DNA of 64,000 bases from positions 1 through 64,000 of the forward strand of contig REEK01000107.1 of NCBI GenBank assembly GCA_007695115.1, given 5' to 3'. A program made the translations under genes and the position numbers. The DNA is from Sphaerobacteraceae bacterium. GTDB taxonomy: Bacteria; Chloroflexota; Chloroflexia; Thermomicrobiales; Thermomicrobiaceae. The notes under the pieces were generated by a model. The model worked only from the letters and a program-made list of their open reading frames with translations, was not told the DNA's origin and did not search any database. Shown here one piece after another: positions 38,632 through 46,516 of this stretch. How positions within the stretch are numbered: the first letter of the stretch is position 1; every line of letters starts with the position of its first letter.

Positions 38632-39336
38632 TCAGTCTGAGGCTCTCCCAGAGGTTCCGAAGGCGGCCTGATATTCAGCCTCGCTGCCTACCCACGTTTC
38701 GCCGTCTTCGTAGAATTCCTTCTTCCAGATCGGGACGATCTCTTTGATCCGGTCGATCGCATAGCGGCAAGCATCGAAGGCGTCACCACGGTGGGCGGAG
38801 GCAACGGCGATTGCCACGCTGGCTTCCCCGACGCTGAGATGTCCCATCCGGTGGAGGATAGCTGTAGCTTCGATCTCCCAGCGTTCCTGGATTTCAACGC
38901 CGATCTGCTGAAGCATCTTTTCGGCAGCTGGTGGATACGCTTCATAATCCAGGCTCTTCACTGCCCGACCACGTGCGTTATCGCGCACGGTGCCGACGAA
39001 GGTGACGATCGCCCCCGTTCCGGGAGAGGCAACCATCGCCGTGACATCTGCTTCTGATACCGGTGTCTCGGTGACTTGAAATCGCTTCACTTCTCCGCCG
39101 GATACCGGCGGGATCAGGGCGATCTCATCGCCTTCCTGTACGGCGTAGGAGGGTTCGGCGTATTCCTCGTTAACCATGAAAAGGAGCGATGGCCGAAGCC
39201 GCTGGATCTGGGGATGCTCGCTGGCGATCCCGGAAAACACATCGTCCAGGGTCTCCCCCGGAGAGGCTTCACGGGTTTCCTGCGACTGACCAATCAGCTC
39301 CCGGACGACGGCGAAATAGAGCAGTCTGATGCGCAA
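38632..39336 (-). CDS. Fused molybdopterin synthase (MoaD-MoaE)
   Basis: About 234 residues joining both subunits of molybdopterin synthase, which puts the dithiolene sulfurs on cyclic pyranopterin phosphate. Residues 1-81 are a ubiquitin-like MoaD ending ALIPPVSGG. MoaE follows, with RMGHLSVGEASV, HRGDAFDACRYAID and the Lys pair in IWKKE. The Gly-Gly must be freed to carry the thiocarboxylate, so cleavage after about Gly81 is expected, as known for mycobacterial MoaX. TTG at 39336 with GGGAG upstream is used; longer frames would run into the tRNA gene. Confidence 0.9.
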   Translation of the reverse strand: MRIRLLYFAVVRELIGQSQETREASPGETLDDVFSGIASEHPQIQRLRPSLLFMVNEEYAEPSYAVQEGDEIALIPPVSGGEVKRFQVTETPVSEADVTAMVASPGTGAIVTFVGTVRDNARGRAVKSLDYEAYPPAAEKMLQQIGVEIQERWEIEATAILHRMGHLSVGEASVAIAVASAHRGDAFDACRYAIDRIKEIVPIWKKEFYEDGETWVGSEAEYQAAFGTSGRASD

Positions 39337-39375
39337 GGTAGTCTCCCGTTGATTACGTGAAGGGTGAAGAGATAG

Positions 39376-39448
39376 TGCCCCCGGCAGGACTCGAACCTGC
39401 GACATGCGGCTTAGAAGGCCGCCGTTCTATCCCCTGAACTACGGGGGC
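39376..39448 (-). tRNA. tRNA-Arg (UCU)
   Basis: 73-base cloverleaf with a 7-bp acceptor stem GCCCCCG/CGGGGGC. The anticodon arm GCGGC-CTTCTAA-GCCGC gives anticodon TCT, which reads AGA. The T arm has GGTTCGAGTCC. No CCA is encoded. A TACAAT box lies upstream at 39497-39502 on the minus strand. Confidence 0.97.
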
Positions 39449-39527: not shown

Positions 39528-41720
39528 TCAGTGAGTGATTTGCGGTGCGGTCTCATCGATATCCGGGATCAGCGGAAGGCAGAATGTAAATGTCGTTGAC
39601 TTGCCTGGTGTAGAAGAGACAGAGATCGAGCCGCCATGCTGTTCGATAATCTGCCTGGTGATGTAGAGCCCCAGCCCGGTACCGCTGATTCCTCTTGAGG
39701 CCGCAGCTCCCCGTTGAAACGGTTGAAACAGTCGTGCCTGCTCCTCGTCGGAGATCCCGACCCCCTGATCCTCAATCCTGACCGTTGCATCGCGTTCATC
39801 TGCCTGAATGGAGACCTTGATTGGCCCGCCATCAGGGGAGTATTTCAAGGCATTTGACAGCAGATTCGAAAACACCTGATCGAGTCGCAAAGGATCCCAC
39901 TGTCCACGAACTGGCCCGCTGGCATGGACGATCATCTCGTGGTTCGGGCGACGTTCGATCGCGTCATCGAACCGTTCAGCGACCTGCTGAGCCAGTTCAA
40001 CCAGGTCAGTATTGGGAGTCAGATTCAGGTCAAGACGCCCGCGCTGCATGCGAGACACATCGAGGATGTCGGACACAAGCAACTCGAGTCGCGTGACCTG
40101 GGTAAAGAGCCGCTCTCTCGTTGTGATAATGCGTTCGTGCTCCCACTCAGGTTTGTTGAGATACCGCTCCAGAACCTGAATATACCCTTTGATGACGGTC
40201 AACGGTGTCTTCAACTCGTGAGAGACCAGGGAGACGAACTCTTCTCGTGCCCGGGCTGCTTCCTGAGCTTCGTGGTAGAGATGCGCGTTGTCGATGCTGA
40301 CCGCGGCCCGGTGGGTCACCTCGGATGCCAGATGAAGATCATCCTCAGTATAGCGACGACCAGAGTCTGACATGCCGAAGGTCACTACACCGAACGCCCG
40401 ACCGCGGGCGACCAGCGGTACCAGCATGACCGAGGTTGGATTGAGCTGGCGGGCGAGCTCCAGATGTTCCGGGCTCCGGGCCATTTTCTGCAGCATCTCG
40501 TCGGTGACGATTGAGTGGAGCTGGGGGCGTCCATCCTGCAGCGCCCGGGTCAATGGGTGGGAATCGTCACCGTGCGGCAGAAATCCGCGCTCACGGATCG
40601 ATTCCAGAATCACTTGTTTCTCCGGGTTTCGATGCGCCAGTGCCAGCCGATTGATGTTGCCATTTGGTTCCAGCGTGTTGATCGAACACCAGTCCGCCTG
40701 TTTGGGAATGATCAGACGCATCAGCTTCGCCAGCGTGGTCTCGTATTCGAGCGATGTTGCCAGAGCCTCGCTTACCTCGGAGAGGAACTGGAAGCGCTCT
40801 TTGGTTCGCTCTGCCTCTTGTCTGGCTGCCTGCTCCAGCGCCAGCTGAAATGCCTGAGCTTCGCTCGCCTTGCGTTCAGTGACGTCCTGAGCAGTTCCCA
40901 CCATGCTGATCAGATCTCCCTCCTCGTTGACGGTGATCGCTCCCTGGCTGTAGATGAGCCTGACGATGCCATCGGGGCGAACAATCCGGTGCTCCAACTC
41001 GAAGGACGATCGTCGCTCCAGCGCCTCGCTGATGGTCTGTGAGACCCGATCACGATCGGCAGGATGAATGTAGAGAACGTAGTCGGCGTAGCTCATGGGG
41101 TCATCAGAAGGCTCAACGCCGAACAGGCGATACAGCTCGTAGGACCAGGTGATTTCGTCAGTGAGCACATCCCAGCGCCAGCTCCCGAGTTTGGCAACGC
41201 GCTGCGCTTCGGCCAGCAGTAACTGATTGGTGCGGAGCTCATTAGCTAACCGGGTGTGCTGGGTGATGTCGCGAATCGTGACGAGGAGAAAGGACTGCTC
41301 TGAAATCGTGACCGATCTGGTCTCAATCTCCGCGTTGAGAACGGCGCCACTTCGGGTGATCACGTTGAATCTGGCCGACGCTGCGGCGGAGTATGGTGCT
41401 GACTGCGTGGCGCGGTACCGGATGAACTCCAGCAACTGTTCGCGAGCCTGATCATGTACAAGCTCATCGATTCTGGTGCCCCGAAGCTCCTCTGGCGTCC
41501 AACCAAGAAGATCCTCTGCGCGCTGATTCATTTCGACTATGTGATGCCCGGGGTCGAGCATGATGACCGAATCTGATATCGCGTTCAATACCTGAAGCGT
41601 ATTGGACAAATCATGGTCCTGGGGTTGACGTGTCACGTTCAAGAGTACTCCGATTTCCGACGAGTCGCATCGGTCTGTCTCGTGTGCCACCTTGTTCGAA
41701 GTCACTGCAGAATCTAGCAC
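39528..41720 (-). CDS. Hybrid-input sensor histidine kinase (PAS-PAS-GAF-HisKA-HATPase)
   Basis: Up to 730 residues, cytosolic. PAS domains lie at about 38-153 and 175-283, GAF at about 315-480, then a dimerisation domain with phospho-acceptor His501 in SHELKTPL. The ATPase domain has N-box NLLSNALKYS, DQGVGI and GTGLGLYI. No membrane segment is seen. The start is uncertain: GTG at 41720, or GTG at 41636 with CGGAGT upstream. It is the last gene of the minus-strand signalling block and starts 125 bases after the GGDEF-EAL gene. Confidence 0.92.
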   Translation of the reverse strand: MLDSAVTSNKVAHETDRCDSSEIGVLLNVTRQPQDHDLSNTLQVLNAISDSVIMLDPGHHIVEMNQRAEDLLGWTPEELRGTRIDELVHDQAREQLLEFIRYRATQSAPYSAAASARFNVITRSGAVLNAEIETRSVTISEQSFLLVTIRDITQHTRLANELRTNQLLLAEAQRVAKLGSWRWDVLTDEITWSYELYRLFGVEPSDDPMSYADYVLYIHPADRDRVSQTISEALERRSSFELEHRIVRPDGIVRLIYSQGAITVNEEGDLISMVGTAQDVTERKASEAQAFQLALEQAARQEAERTKERFQFLSEVSEALATSLEYETTLAKLMRLIIPKQADWCSINTLEPNGNINRLALAHRNPEKQVILESIRERGFLPHGDDSHPLTRALQDGRPQLHSIVTDEMLQKMARSPEHLELARQLNPTSVMLVPLVARGRAFGVVTFGMSDSGRRYTEDDLHLASEVTHRAAVSIDNAHLYHEAQEAARAREEFVSLVSHELKTPLTVIKGYIQVLERYLNKPEWEHERIITTRERLFTQVTRLELLVSDILDVSRMQRGRLDLNLTPNTDLVELAQQVAERFDDAIERRPNHEMIVHASGPVRGQWDPLRLDQVFSNLLSNALKYSPDGGPIKVSIQADERDATVRIEDQGVGISDEEQARLFQPFQRGAAASRGISGTGLGLYITRQIIEQHGGSISVSSTPGKSTTFTFCLPLIPDIDETAPQITH

Positions 41721-41845: not shown

Positions 41846-44350
41846 CTACTCCTGCGAAGCAGCCGCAATCTCGTGAAAGTACGCGGAGATGTCACTCAGC
41901 GGAACCGGGAATCCGAGCAGATACCCCTGAGCCAGATCGATGGTTACGCTTTTCGCGAGCTCAAATTGCTCAGGGGCTTCGATCCCTTCGGCCACGGTCC
42001 GGATTCCCAGGTCTGATGCGAGGGAGCTGATCGATCGAAGGATCGCGTTAGAGTACTGAAGGTCGCCGTCGGTTGCGATGATCGATCGATCAAGTTTGAG
42101 GAAATCTACGGGGATTTTCTGGAGAATGGCAAACGTTGAATAGCCTACGCCGAAATCATCGATCGCGATCCTTACTCCGAGTTTGCTCAGCGCCTTGACC
42201 GCGGCAACAGGCTCAGGATTTCCGGACGCCAGCGCCCGTTCGGTAACCTCGACCACCAGGTTGTAGGCACTGAGCTTGTGATGGGCGAGTAGCCGTTTGA
42301 TTCTGTCTACAAGGGTTGGAGACGCCAACTCGCGTTGATCGAGATTTACCGTGACGCTGGGAAGGCGGTAGCCATAGCGGTCAGCGATTTCTCGCCAGTC
42401 TGCGAGCGCAGCGATTGACTCCTGCAGTACGAAGTCTCCGATTTCTTCCATGAGCTCGGCTTCGATCGCCACGTCGAGGAAATACCCTGGCCCGACCAGT
42501 CCGTGCACTGGGTGCTGCCAGCGAACGAGTGCTTCGCCAGCAGCGAAGCGGTTGGTTCCGATCTCAATAATGGGTTGAAAGTAGACACGGAATTCGCGAT
42601 TGATCAGTGCCTTGCGAAGCTCGTTTTCCAGGGTTAGCCGGTTGACAGCCATCAGATGATGCTCAGTATCGAAGATCTCATATTGCCCGCGGCCCCGGTT
42701 CTTTGCGCGATACATGGCGGTGTCCGCGTCGCGGACGATAGCTTCCGGACTCTCGTAGCGTGCGCTATTCAACACGATACCGATTCCCGCGGTGGCGGAA
42801 ATCGAGTGATCACCGATGGAGAACGAATCCTGCAGTGCTCGTTGCAGGCGGCGGGCAACCCGAGCAGCATCATAGGGAGTGCCAATGTCTTCAACGAGAA
42901 TGCCGAAATCGTCTCCCCCGAGTCTGGCGAGTGTATCGCTCGGCTCCAGGATACTCGCGATCCGGTTTGCGACTTCGATCAGCAGCTGGTCCCCTGCGCT
43001 ATGTCCCAGCCCGTCGTTGACGATCTTGAACTGATCTAGGTCGAGCATGAAAACGCCGAATACGAAGTCCGGATTCCGGGTGGAATGTGCCAGGGCCTGA
43101 GCAATCCGCTCGCCGAACATGACACGATTCGGCCGGCCGGTCAGGCGATCATGGAGGGCATCATGAATGATCTGTTGTTCATACTGTTTTCGCAGCGTGA
43201 TGTCTGACTGAGTGGATACGTGATGGCTGATGGCGCCGTGTTGATCGCGTACCGGCGCGATGTTCAACAGCATGTCGAAGGATTCGCCGCTCCGACGCTG
43301 GCCGGCTGTTTCCCCGTGGAACGCTTCTCCCTTACGAATCGCCCGATTAATCTGATTGACCGTGACCGGATCGGTTTCCGGGCCCATGAGAAGCATCGCC
43401 TTGCGGCCGTCGACATCTGTCGCCTGATATCCGGTTAGATCGGTGAATGCGCGATTGGCAAAGACAATCTCCGGGGCCTTCTGCTGATCGAGCCGGGTGC
43501 TGATGATGATCGATTCGTTTGCCTGATCGATCGCCGTTCGCAGCAACTCGAGCCGTTCCTCCTGCTGACGACGTGCGGTAACGTCAGTTTGCAGGCCGAC
43601 AAAGTGGGTGAGTTGCCCGTCCTTGCTGAACACCGGTGAGATAAAAATCTGATTCCAGAACGCGGTGCCATCTTTACGGTAGTTGAGAATTTCAAGGGCG
43701 ATATCTTCGTGATTTTTGATGCCTTCACGCATTCGTTCCACTGCGGTCTTGTCGGTCTCAGGCCCTTGAAGAAACCGGCAGTTGTGGCCAACGATCTCAT
43801 CAAGATCGTATCCAGTGATCCTGAGGAAAGCCGGATTGGCGAATGTGATCGGAAAGCCCTGAATCTGGGCGTCTACCAGCACCATTCCCTGACCGAGTTG
43901 AGCGATTGCCGCATCCAGTACATGGCGTTCATCGCGCTCCTGGCGCAAATGCCCGCCGAGTCGCACCCGTTCCACGGCGTAGGTGATTGACCGGCTGAGC
44001 AGGATCGGATTGATGTCATCTTTGACGAGGTAGTCTTGAGCGCCACCACGCACTGCGTTGATTCCGATGGACTCACTTTCGAGGCCCGTCAGCACGACAA
44101 CCGGGACGTCGGGTCTGATATCCATGCATCGATTCAGCGTTTCCAGCCCATCACTATCGTCGAGGTGCAGGTCGAGCAGAATCAGATCGCAATGGGTCTG
44201 AAGGTCTAAACTGGCAAGTTCCTGAATGGATGACAGGTGCCGGAGCTCGAAGCTGCTACCTGGTGGCACATCTTTGAGGTACTCTCGAATGAGCCGCGCA
44301 TCACCCGGGTTATCCTCCACCAGCCAGACAGTCAGCGGTAGCGCGGACAT
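41846..44350 (-). CDS. REC-LOV-PAS-GGDEF-EAL protein, putative blue-light c-di-GMP regulator
   Basis: 834 residues. A receiver domain (about 5-125, phospho-acceptor Asp60) is followed by a LOV domain at about 145-260 with the full flavin signature: GHNCRFLQG with adduct Cys191, Asn223, Asn233 and Gln254. A second, LOV-like PAS at about 275-390 lacks the cysteine. The GGDEF domain reads GGDDF at 478-482, so cyclase activity is doubtful. The EAL domain looks active: Glu606 in EALVRW, Asn669, Glu701, Asp731-Asp732, Lys752, Glu788, Gln808. Net c-di-GMP breakdown under light and phosphorelay control is inferred. It starts 2 bases after the regulator stop. Confidence 0.93.
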   Translation of the reverse strand: MSALPLTVWLVEDNPGDARLIREYLKDVPPGSSFELRHLSSIQELASLDLQTHCDLILLDLHLDDSDGLETLNRCMDIRPDVPVVVLTGLESESIGINAVRGGAQDYLVKDDINPILLSRSITYAVERVRLGGHLRQERDERHVLDAAIAQLGQGMVLVDAQIQGFPITFANPAFLRITGYDLDEIVGHNCRFLQGPETDKTAVERMREGIKNHEDIALEILNYRKDGTAFWNQIFISPVFSKDGQLTHFVGLQTDVTARRQQEERLELLRTAIDQANESIIISTRLDQQKAPEIVFANRAFTDLTGYQATDVDGRKAMLLMGPETDPVTVNQINRAIRKGEAFHGETAGQRRSGESFDMLLNIAPVRDQHGAISHHVSTQSDITLRKQYEQQIIHDALHDRLTGRPNRVMFGERIAQALAHSTRNPDFVFGVFMLDLDQFKIVNDGLGHSAGDQLLIEVANRIASILEPSDTLARLGGDDFGILVEDIGTPYDAARVARRLQRALQDSFSIGDHSISATAGIGIVLNSARYESPEAIVRDADTAMYRAKNRGRGQYEIFDTEHHLMAVNRLTLENELRKALINREFRVYFQPIIEIGTNRFAAGEALVRWQHPVHGLVGPGYFLDVAIEAELMEEIGDFVLQESIAALADWREIADRYGYRLPSVTVNLDQRELASPTLVDRIKRLLAHHKLSAYNLVVEVTERALASGNPEPVAAVKALSKLGVRIAIDDFGVGYSTFAILQKIPVDFLKLDRSIIATDGDLQYSNAILRSISSLASDLGIRTVAEGIEAPEQFELAKSVTIDLAQGYLLGFPVPLSDISAYFHEIAAASQE

Positions 44351-44352
44351 GA

Positions 44353-44796
44353 CTATTCCTCCGGGAGCAGAACAGTAGCGATCCAGAAGGACTCGATCTG
44401 GCTCACCGCATTCAGGAAATCATCGAGATCCATCGGTTTCTGCACGTAGGCGTTGGCATGTTCTCGATAACTTGCGGCGATGTCTTCGGGCTCACCTGAT
44501 GTCGAAAACATGACAATCGGAATTGAACCGACTCCGGCATCCTGCTTGGTCTCTGCCAGGACATCCAGACCACTGGTCTGATCGATATGCAGATCCATCA
44601 GGATAAGATCTGGCCGATGATGGCTCCGGCCGGCTTTCCGGATTTCCTCAAAAGCCGTGGCTCCGTCATTGACAACCGTGAGCTGGGTATTGAACCCGGA
44701 TTCGGTCAGCGCTTCGCGAACCAGCCGAACATCTGCCGGATTATCTTCGACAATCAGGATCTCGAACGGACGTTTTCGGACACTATCGCGGTTCAT
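44353..44796 (-). CDS. Single-domain response regulator, Rcp1-like
   Basis: 147-residue receiver domain with no output domain. It has the acidic pocket in VEDNPAD, phospho-acceptor Asp in LILMDLHID, Thr/Ser switch in MFSTSGEP and Lys in YVQKPMD. This form typically pairs with phytochrome-like kinases. Its ATG overlaps the kinase stop by 4 bases, so the kinase at 44793-45911 is the probable partner. It could act as a phosphate shuttle to the receiver of the GGDEF-EAL protein. Confidence 0.93.
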   Translation of the reverse strand: MNRDSVRKRPFEILIVEDNPADVRLVREALTESGFNTQLTVVNDGATAFEEIRKAGRSHHRPDLILMDLHIDQTSGLDVLAETKQDAGVGSIPIVMFSTSGEPEDIAASYREHANAYVQKPMDLDDFLNAVSQIESFWIATVLLPEE

Positions 44797-45911
44797 ATGC
44801 GATCTCCCTGTCGTCTGTCAGGTAGCGTAACGTAGAAGACCGCACCGTGTCCCGGCTCGGACTCGGCCCAGATGCGGCCACCGTGCCCATGGATAATTTT
44901 GCGAGCTACGGCAAGCCCGGTTCCTGTTCCTCTGACCTTCTCGCTTCTTCGCCCGCGAGCGAATGGTACGAAGATTCGGTTGAGATCATCACCATCAATG
45001 CCCGGGCCGTTATCCCGAACTTCGATTTTCCAGATGTCGAGCAGTCGTTCGGCATCGATCTGAATGGTCGGAGCCGCAGTTCCTCGATACTTCAGGGAGT
45101 TCTCAATGAGGTTCTGGAACACACGTCGCAACTGAGAACGATCCCCGTCCACCGTGGGTAGTTCAGATACGGAGATGCTTGCCTTCTCATCCTTGATCAT
45201 CAACGCCAGGTCTGACTGAACCTCCGCGAGTACGTCGTTGAGATTGACCGGCTGCAAATCAATGGCTTCTGAGCCGAAACGAGCCACATGCAGGAGATCG
45301 CGAATCATGGTCGACATGCGCTCTGCCCCGTCAACCACGTAGTCGAGAAATTCAGCGCCATCTTCGTCCAGATGATCACGGTAACGTCTGTTGAGCAATT
45401 TGGCATAGCTGCCGATCATGCGAAGTGGCTCGCGCAGGTCGTGCGAGGCGATGCGCGCGAAACTTTCGAGTTCAGCGTTGGAGCGTTCGAGTTCGAGTGC
45501 GTGGGCTTTCAGTTGCATCTGAAGAGCCCGCGTGGCTGTCACATTGCGGTTGATCGAAAGGATGTGATCCGGTATATCGCCCAGACCATCCCGCTTGATC
45601 TGCCTGCTCTCCATGATCAGCAACGCACCGGTTCTGTCCCGGTGGTGAAGTTCACCTGCCCAGATGGCGTCAGAATGATCAGTGACGGTATGTTCTGTGT
45701 CGCTTGTATCCCACTGGATCAACGAAAGTGACTGCCCGAGCATTTGATCTCGTGACCAGCCGTAGATGCGTTCGGCACCCTGGTTCCAGTAGAGGATTGT
45801 TCCGGTGGAATCAAAGGCAAGCACAGCGTCATGAATCAGATCGAGCAAATCCTGACACAGGCCTGCTCCATCAAACATCTGGAGCTCACGCCGTTGGCGG
45901 TCTGCCGACAT
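44793..45911 (-). CDS. PAS-domain sensor histidine kinase, phytochrome-kinase type core
   Basis: 372 residues. A PAS domain (about 18-130) leads to a dimerisation domain of the ELESFARIASHDLREPLR type with His157, as seen in kinases that serve Rcp1-like regulators. The ATPase domain has NLIENSLKYRG, DNGPGID and GTGTGLAVARKI. No bilin-binding GAF/PHY domains are present, so the PAS is the only visible sensor. GGGAGA lies before the ATG. First gene of the signalling operon. Confidence 0.92.
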   Translation of the reverse strand: MSADRQRRELQMFDGAGLCQDLLDLIHDAVLAFDSTGTILYWNQGAERIYGWSRDQMLGQSLSLIQWDTSDTEHTVTDHSDAIWAGELHHRDRTGALLIMESRQIKRDGLGDIPDHILSINRNVTATRALQMQLKAHALELERSNAELESFARIASHDLREPLRMIGSYAKLLNRRYRDHLDEDGAEFLDYVVDGAERMSTMIRDLLHVARFGSEAIDLQPVNLNDVLAEVQSDLALMIKDEKASISVSELPTVDGDRSQLRRVFQNLIENSLKYRGTAAPTIQIDAERLLDIWKIEVRDNGPGIDGDDLNRIFVPFARGRRSEKVRGTGTGLAVARKIIHGHGGRIWAESEPGHGAVFYVTLPDRRQGDRI

Positions 45912-46274: not shown

Positions 46275-46516
46275 CAAGAAGATGCGTTGACGGGAAGTAG
46301 TAGCGGAATTTTCGACCAAGCGAACCGGGGTGTGGTGTGAGCCCGGTGTCGGTAAAGATCGTGAACTCGTCCCCGAGCAGCCGGAATGAGCATTTGTGTA
46401 GTTCCGGCCGGTTCGCGCCCGATATCGCGCTCCGAGTGGATGAGCCAGAGAGCGTCATCAACGAGGGTGGTACCGCGGGTATTCTGATCCCGTCCCTTTT
46501 CCGGGACGGGTTTTTT
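46275..46516 (+). promoter_or_regulatory. T-box leader controlling leucine biosynthesis genes
   Basis: tRNA-sensing leader. The T-box sequence AGGGTGGTACCGCG is at 46464-46477 and the terminator CCCGTCCC/GGGACGGG plus TTTTTT at 46489-46516. Upstream is a long structured region with an AGTA-type motif near 46290. GAACTC at 46363-46368 offers CTC as a leucine specifier codon. Uncharged tRNA-Leu should stabilise the antiterminator and allow leu transcription. The specifier is a candidate only. Confidence 0.88.
46489..46516 (+). terminator. T-box terminator
   Basis: An 8-bp GC stem (CCCGTCCC with GGGACGGG) and a 6-base loop are followed by six T. It is the OFF-state element of the T-box leader. 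Confidence 0.88.

Follow-up and report, generated by a model that had tools for sequence, protein, structure and literature searches.

Introduction

About 18% of 1390 bacterial LOV proteins bear a GGDEF domain or a GGDEF-EAL pair (PMC4844311). SL2 of Synechococcus elongatus is a LOV-GGDEF-EAL protein with blue-light phosphodiesterase activity (PMC8846402). In this report, we describe an 834-residue protein that resembles SL2 in that a canonical LOV domain feeds a GGDEF-EAL pair. However, SL2 has been described without a receiver, whereas the present protein adds an N-terminal REC domain, a second PAS domain and an operon that also encodes a kinase and a receiver. The oxygen-sensing phosphodiesterase DosP (PRK11359) has the same order of sensor PAS, second PAS, GGDEF and EAL, but its sensor is a heme PAS and it has no REC, where our protein has LOV and REC. 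Against the NCBIfam equivalog model for DosP (PRK11359), the 834-residue protein scores 339.9 bits, below the cut-off of 857.

Two other arrangements are instructive. In Anabaena PCC 7120, CdgK and CdgS constitute an operon of a kinase and a REC-GGDEF protein, and phosphorylation tunes c-di-GMP (PMC9927289). A kinase with a receiver-bearing GGDEF effector is likewise found at our locus, but CdgK-CdgS serves c-di-GMP synthesis and has no LOV, whereas breakdown is predicted for the LOV-bearing protein studied here. Halomonadaceae PAS-LOV-GGDEF-EAL-REC proteins (L005:7271-9802 and L006:449-2998) also unite LOV, receiver and GGDEF-EAL in a single polypeptide; they differ in their C-terminal receiver, their canonical GGDEF and a neighbouring REC-HD-GYP protein instead of a kinase/Rcp1-like pair. 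The present protein is thus distinct from known LOV-GGDEF-EAL proteins in its N-terminal receiver and in the recruitment of LOV into a kinase/Rcp1-like triad.

Results

Gene block and conservation

The window is a 64,000-nucleotide stretch of contig REEK01000107.1 (Sphaerobacteraceae bacterium, GCA_007695115.1), from an organism with kinship to the Thermomicrobiaceae. The features of interest are collected in Table 1. The kinase and receiver genes overlap by 4 nt (ATGA), and a 2-nt gap separates the receiver gene from that of the 834-residue protein. The initial annotation had claimed three abutting or overlapping genes, the last encoding a REC-LOV-PAS-GGDEF-EAL protein. The open reading frames, overlaps and coordinates agree with this description, as does Pfam, which finds REC (residues 8-111), two PAS, GGDEF (398-555) and EAL (576-813) in the 834-residue protein. 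Both kinases give HisKA/HATPase matches, and the downstream one has GAF as well. A terminator scan revealed no minus-strand terminator between the 834-residue protein's gene and the downstream kinase, and a promoter scan gave counts not above those of shuffles. The PAS-PAS-GAF kinase, which may or may not be co-transcribed, is a possible further input.

Table 1. Features of the block, with window coordinates and supporting observations
Feature	Position	Strand	Evidence and residues
PAS histidine kinase, 372 aa	44793..45911	-	ORF list, Pfam, structure matches; H157, N271, ATP-binding G boxes intact
Rcp1-like single-domain receiver, 147 aa	44353..44796	-	E17, D18, D68, S98/T99, K120; Pfam and Rcp1 match
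REC-LOV-PAS-GGDEF-EAL protein, 834 aa	41846..44350	-	ORF, Pfam, model
REC domain of 834-aa protein, aa 1-125	43976..44350	-	E12, D13, D60, T88, K110 present
Canonical LOV of 834-aa protein, aa 151-262	43565..43900	-	N190, C191, R192, Q195, R208, N223, N233, Q254
Second PAS of 834-aa protein, LOV-derived by sequence, aa 272-392	43175..43537	-	A318, G350, M360 replace Cys and both Asn; Q381 kept
Degenerate GGDEF of 834-aa protein, aa 396-560	42671..43165	-	GGDDF; ExxD instead of RxxD; most GTP-contact residues retained
Predicted EAL phosphodiesterase domain of 834-aa protein, aa 572-820	41891..42637	-	E606, N669, E701, D731, D732, K752, E788, Q808
PAS-PAS-GAF histidine kinase, 125 nt downstream of 834-aa gene	39528..41720	-	Same place in both relatives

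The whole block, with the PAS-PAS-GAF kinase, is kept in the same gene order in two congeners, at 90% identity in Thermomicrobiaceae CSSed162cmB_603 (L001) and about 64% in G110, where the gene is split across two contigs with an identical 120-nt end. Between the two closest species, dN/dS is 0.14 overall and 0.18 in LOV; the block is under purifying selection. The anatomy and key residues are conserved across about 36% divergence. The closest congener stems from a soda lake, where the uppermost sediment below a green mat was sampled; the Halomonadaceae locus L006 comes from the same sample series.

Other features of the window were noted. Divergent from the kinase operon, a T-box leader (RF00230, 109 bits; 46278-46500, plus strand) lies upstream of leuA (46751). 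At 38632-39448 (minus strand), a MoaD-MoaE-like fusion ORF is listed with a start that overlaps a tRNA gene (39376-39448); translation probably begins further downstream, beyond the tRNA. The segment 25127-27274 (minus strand) encodes a protein resembling serine/threonine kinases, the C-terminal half of which is very rich in Asp and Ser.

The LOV domain and its repeat

Compared with solved LOV domains, the LOV domain gives a best E value of 2.6e-34, far above chance, and the alignments shown are ungapped. It has the PAS_9 fold and the cysteine of the GxNCRFLQ motif. The four residues that had been proposed for FMN photochemistry (C191, N223, N233 and Q254) are at exactly the positions assigned to them; N223, N233 and Q254 surround the flavin position and are also kept in both relatives. 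By these residues, the predicted LOV domain would bind FMN and form the cysteinyl adduct. LOV changes faster than any other domain between the two closest species (77% identity, versus 93-95% for REC and EAL), but every photochemical residue is retained in all three species despite this rapid change. In the 64% relative, R208, the second phosphate-side Arg, is replaced by Ala, and chromophore affinity may therefore vary. This is the sole canonical LOV found in the genome, and neither PHY nor BLUF domains were found in the genome or in four congeners.

The second PAS domain also matches LOV structures best (8e-19), with Ala, Gly and Met at the positions of the Cys and the two Asn and only the Gln kept. 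When the two domains (43175-43900, minus strand) are compared with each other, a shift of 127 residues aligns them without gaps in each of the three species, at 31-34% identity, versus at most 7-9% at other shifts. By this pattern, the second PAS is a LOV-derived repeat whose photochemistry has been lost. A role as a second photoreceptor is ruled out by the missing Cys and both missing Asn. At the search threshold, no further LOV-like domain was found in the genome.

The output domains and the predicted structure

The EAL domain has the E(A/V)L motif and the metal and catalytic residues, including DDFG and the catalytic Lys, all of which align with those of MorA and MucR; the proposal of an intact catalytic set was thereby borne out. 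We infer that this predicted phosphodiesterase hydrolyzes c-di-GMP. The GGDEF site reads GGDDF, and the RxxD of the I-site is lost (EPSD or ESTD), both in all three species. The RxxD inhibitory site is common in diguanylate cyclases, albeit not universal. GGDDF departs from the [G/A/S]G[D/E]E[F/Y] motif of active diguanylate cyclases, and a canonical cyclase is ruled out on this ground. The genome as a whole contains 11 EAL and 18 GGDEF matches, and no PilZ c-di-GMP receptor domain was found in the genus.

An AlphaFold2 model of the 834-residue protein has a mean pLDDT of 85.5 and a pTM of 0.43. The individual domains of the model are reliable, but their arrangement is not; at this pTM, the model does not predict how the domains are placed or, consequently, how signals are coupled. 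Among full-length folds, DosP matches it best, with an alignment of about 800 columns. By the LadC definition, the helical PAS-GGDEF linker comprises 21 residues, the same length as in the short LadC class (35 minus 14 residues; PMC10396304).

The kinase, the receiver and the triad

The labels "Rcp1-like" for the receiver and "phytochrome-kinase-like" for the kinase core both held. The closest solved relatives of the receiver are Rcp1 (1jlk/1i3c, E 7e-29) and other phytochrome response regulators, e.g. RcpA, and the kinase core is most like 8f71 and bacteriophytochromes. The active-site residues of both proteins are intact. Rcp1-type receivers partner phytochrome-type kinases. Here, the single receiver is of the Rcp1 type, but the kinase's sensor is one plain PAS and not a bilin-binding GAF-PHY module; a phytochrome system proper is ruled out, as no PHY domain was found in the genome.

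From the class, 30 loci with an Rcp1-like receiver were retrieved, three of them from the genus studied. A kinase gene is directly upstream in 27 of the 30, and in 21 a REC protein is also encoded directly downstream. At the studied locus, the kinase, Rcp1-like receiver and REC-output genes are contiguous, in that order and on the same strand. The triads L127-L129, L133 and L145 share these three genes and their order, and the REC domains of L127-L129 and L133 are similar to that of the studied protein (44-46%). The difference lies in the third gene, which outside the genus encodes REC-PAS-GGDEF in four cases, REC-PAS-GGDEF-EAL in one and kinase-containing proteins in most others; in those read, the PAS is without the LOV cysteine. 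An acidobacterial locus comprises kinase, receiver and REC-GGDEF-EAL.

Across 400 genomes from the phylum, only members of this genus were seen to join REC-LOV to GGDEF-EAL. One other REC-LOV chain (L115) is part of a multi-sensor protein. The contig search with the full 834-residue protein was non-exhaustive, and REC-LOV-GGDEF-EAL chains may exist outside the phylum. Of the 188 partial matches that a plasmid search with the REC-LOV pair returned, none reached 80% query coverage, and no paper on "REC-LOV" was found in the literature covered. The best explanation for this distribution is that LOV entered a pre-existing kinase/Rcp1-like receiver/REC-output triad of the class. The component parts are all familiar; what is new is a light sensor inside a widespread three-gene signalling module.

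Discussion

We propose that the 834-residue protein breaks down c-di-GMP as a phosphodiesterase under the control of blue light and of receiver phosphorylation, with GGDDF as an allosteric GTP site, and we give this reading a probability of roughly 0.65. That light and phosphate signals would be integrated on the EAL output can soundly be drawn from the domain content and from the precedents of SL2 and CdgK-CdgS. Blue light would drive formation of a cysteinyl-FMN adduct at C191. As the second input, D60 of the N-terminal receiver may be phosphorylated by the co-encoded kinase, either by direct transfer or with the Rcp1-like receiver as a competitor. The helical linkers and the LOV-derived PAS would carry both signals to the GGDEF-EAL output, and the protein is probably a dimer. 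In this output, GTP most likely serves as an allosteric activator bound by the GGDDF domain, which would not make c-di-GMP. The domains, residues, gene order, conservation and recurrence of the triad are observed; flavin binding, photochemistry, phosphotransfer, net phosphodiesterase activity and the direction of light control enter this proposal as predictions. More tentatively, the protein could be a coincidence detector, in which REC phosphorylation and LOV excitation act on one phosphodiesterase; the non-photochemical PAS of an old kinase/Rcp1-like/REC-output module would have been replaced by a LOV unit, and photochemistry would since have been lost from the second member of a tandem LOV pair.

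An important question is whether the two inputs converge at all. The kinase might signal to the Rcp1-like receiver only, leaving the REC of the 834-residue protein to be regulated elsewhere or to be structural. Two receivers would compete for one kinase, and this receiver and kinase are similar to the Rcp1-type and phytochrome-type proteins that pair with each other. However, the gene order of the triad has been held across families with differing outputs on the REC protein, and the acid pocket of the REC is intact; we therefore regard such a separation as unlikely. The nature of the light input can be questioned as well. LOV-like flavin domains can sense redox, as RmcA does (PMC8846402), and the closest full-length fold is that of an O2 sensor, DosP. 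The LOV domain could accordingly serve mainly for flavin-based redox or oxygen sensing, and the receiver would then be the main switch. This seems improbable to us, as redox sensing would not need the photochemical Cys, which has been retained even as LOV diverged to 63% identity, and the closest congener comes from sediment beneath a green mat.

The third uncertainty concerns the direction of c-di-GMP turnover, and here the literature on GGDDF activity is split. GSU1937, which has GGDDF, is catalytically active, whereas PA3258, a GGDDF-EAL protein, is without a cyclase phenotype and CC3396, with GEDEF-EAL, acts solely as a phosphodiesterase (PMC8835794). A bifunctional enzyme or a net diguanylate cyclase, with an active GGDDF and a regulatory EAL, would be in line with the first of these and with the retention of most GTP-contact residues. 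Yet the I-site is lost, the EAL domain is fully intact, and the GTP-contact VND is VNE in the 64% relative; we thus hold a cyclase to be quite improbable. A phosphodiesterase with an allosteric GGDEF is more likely.

The proposed light- and phosphate-gated phosphodiesterase would offer a natural single-chain test of how phosphorylation and light signals combine on one c-di-GMP enzyme, and its LOV-free sister triads would provide a built-in control for the splicing of a photosensor into a two-component module. For the organism itself, no LOV, PHY or BLUF photoreceptor other than this protein was found in the genome.
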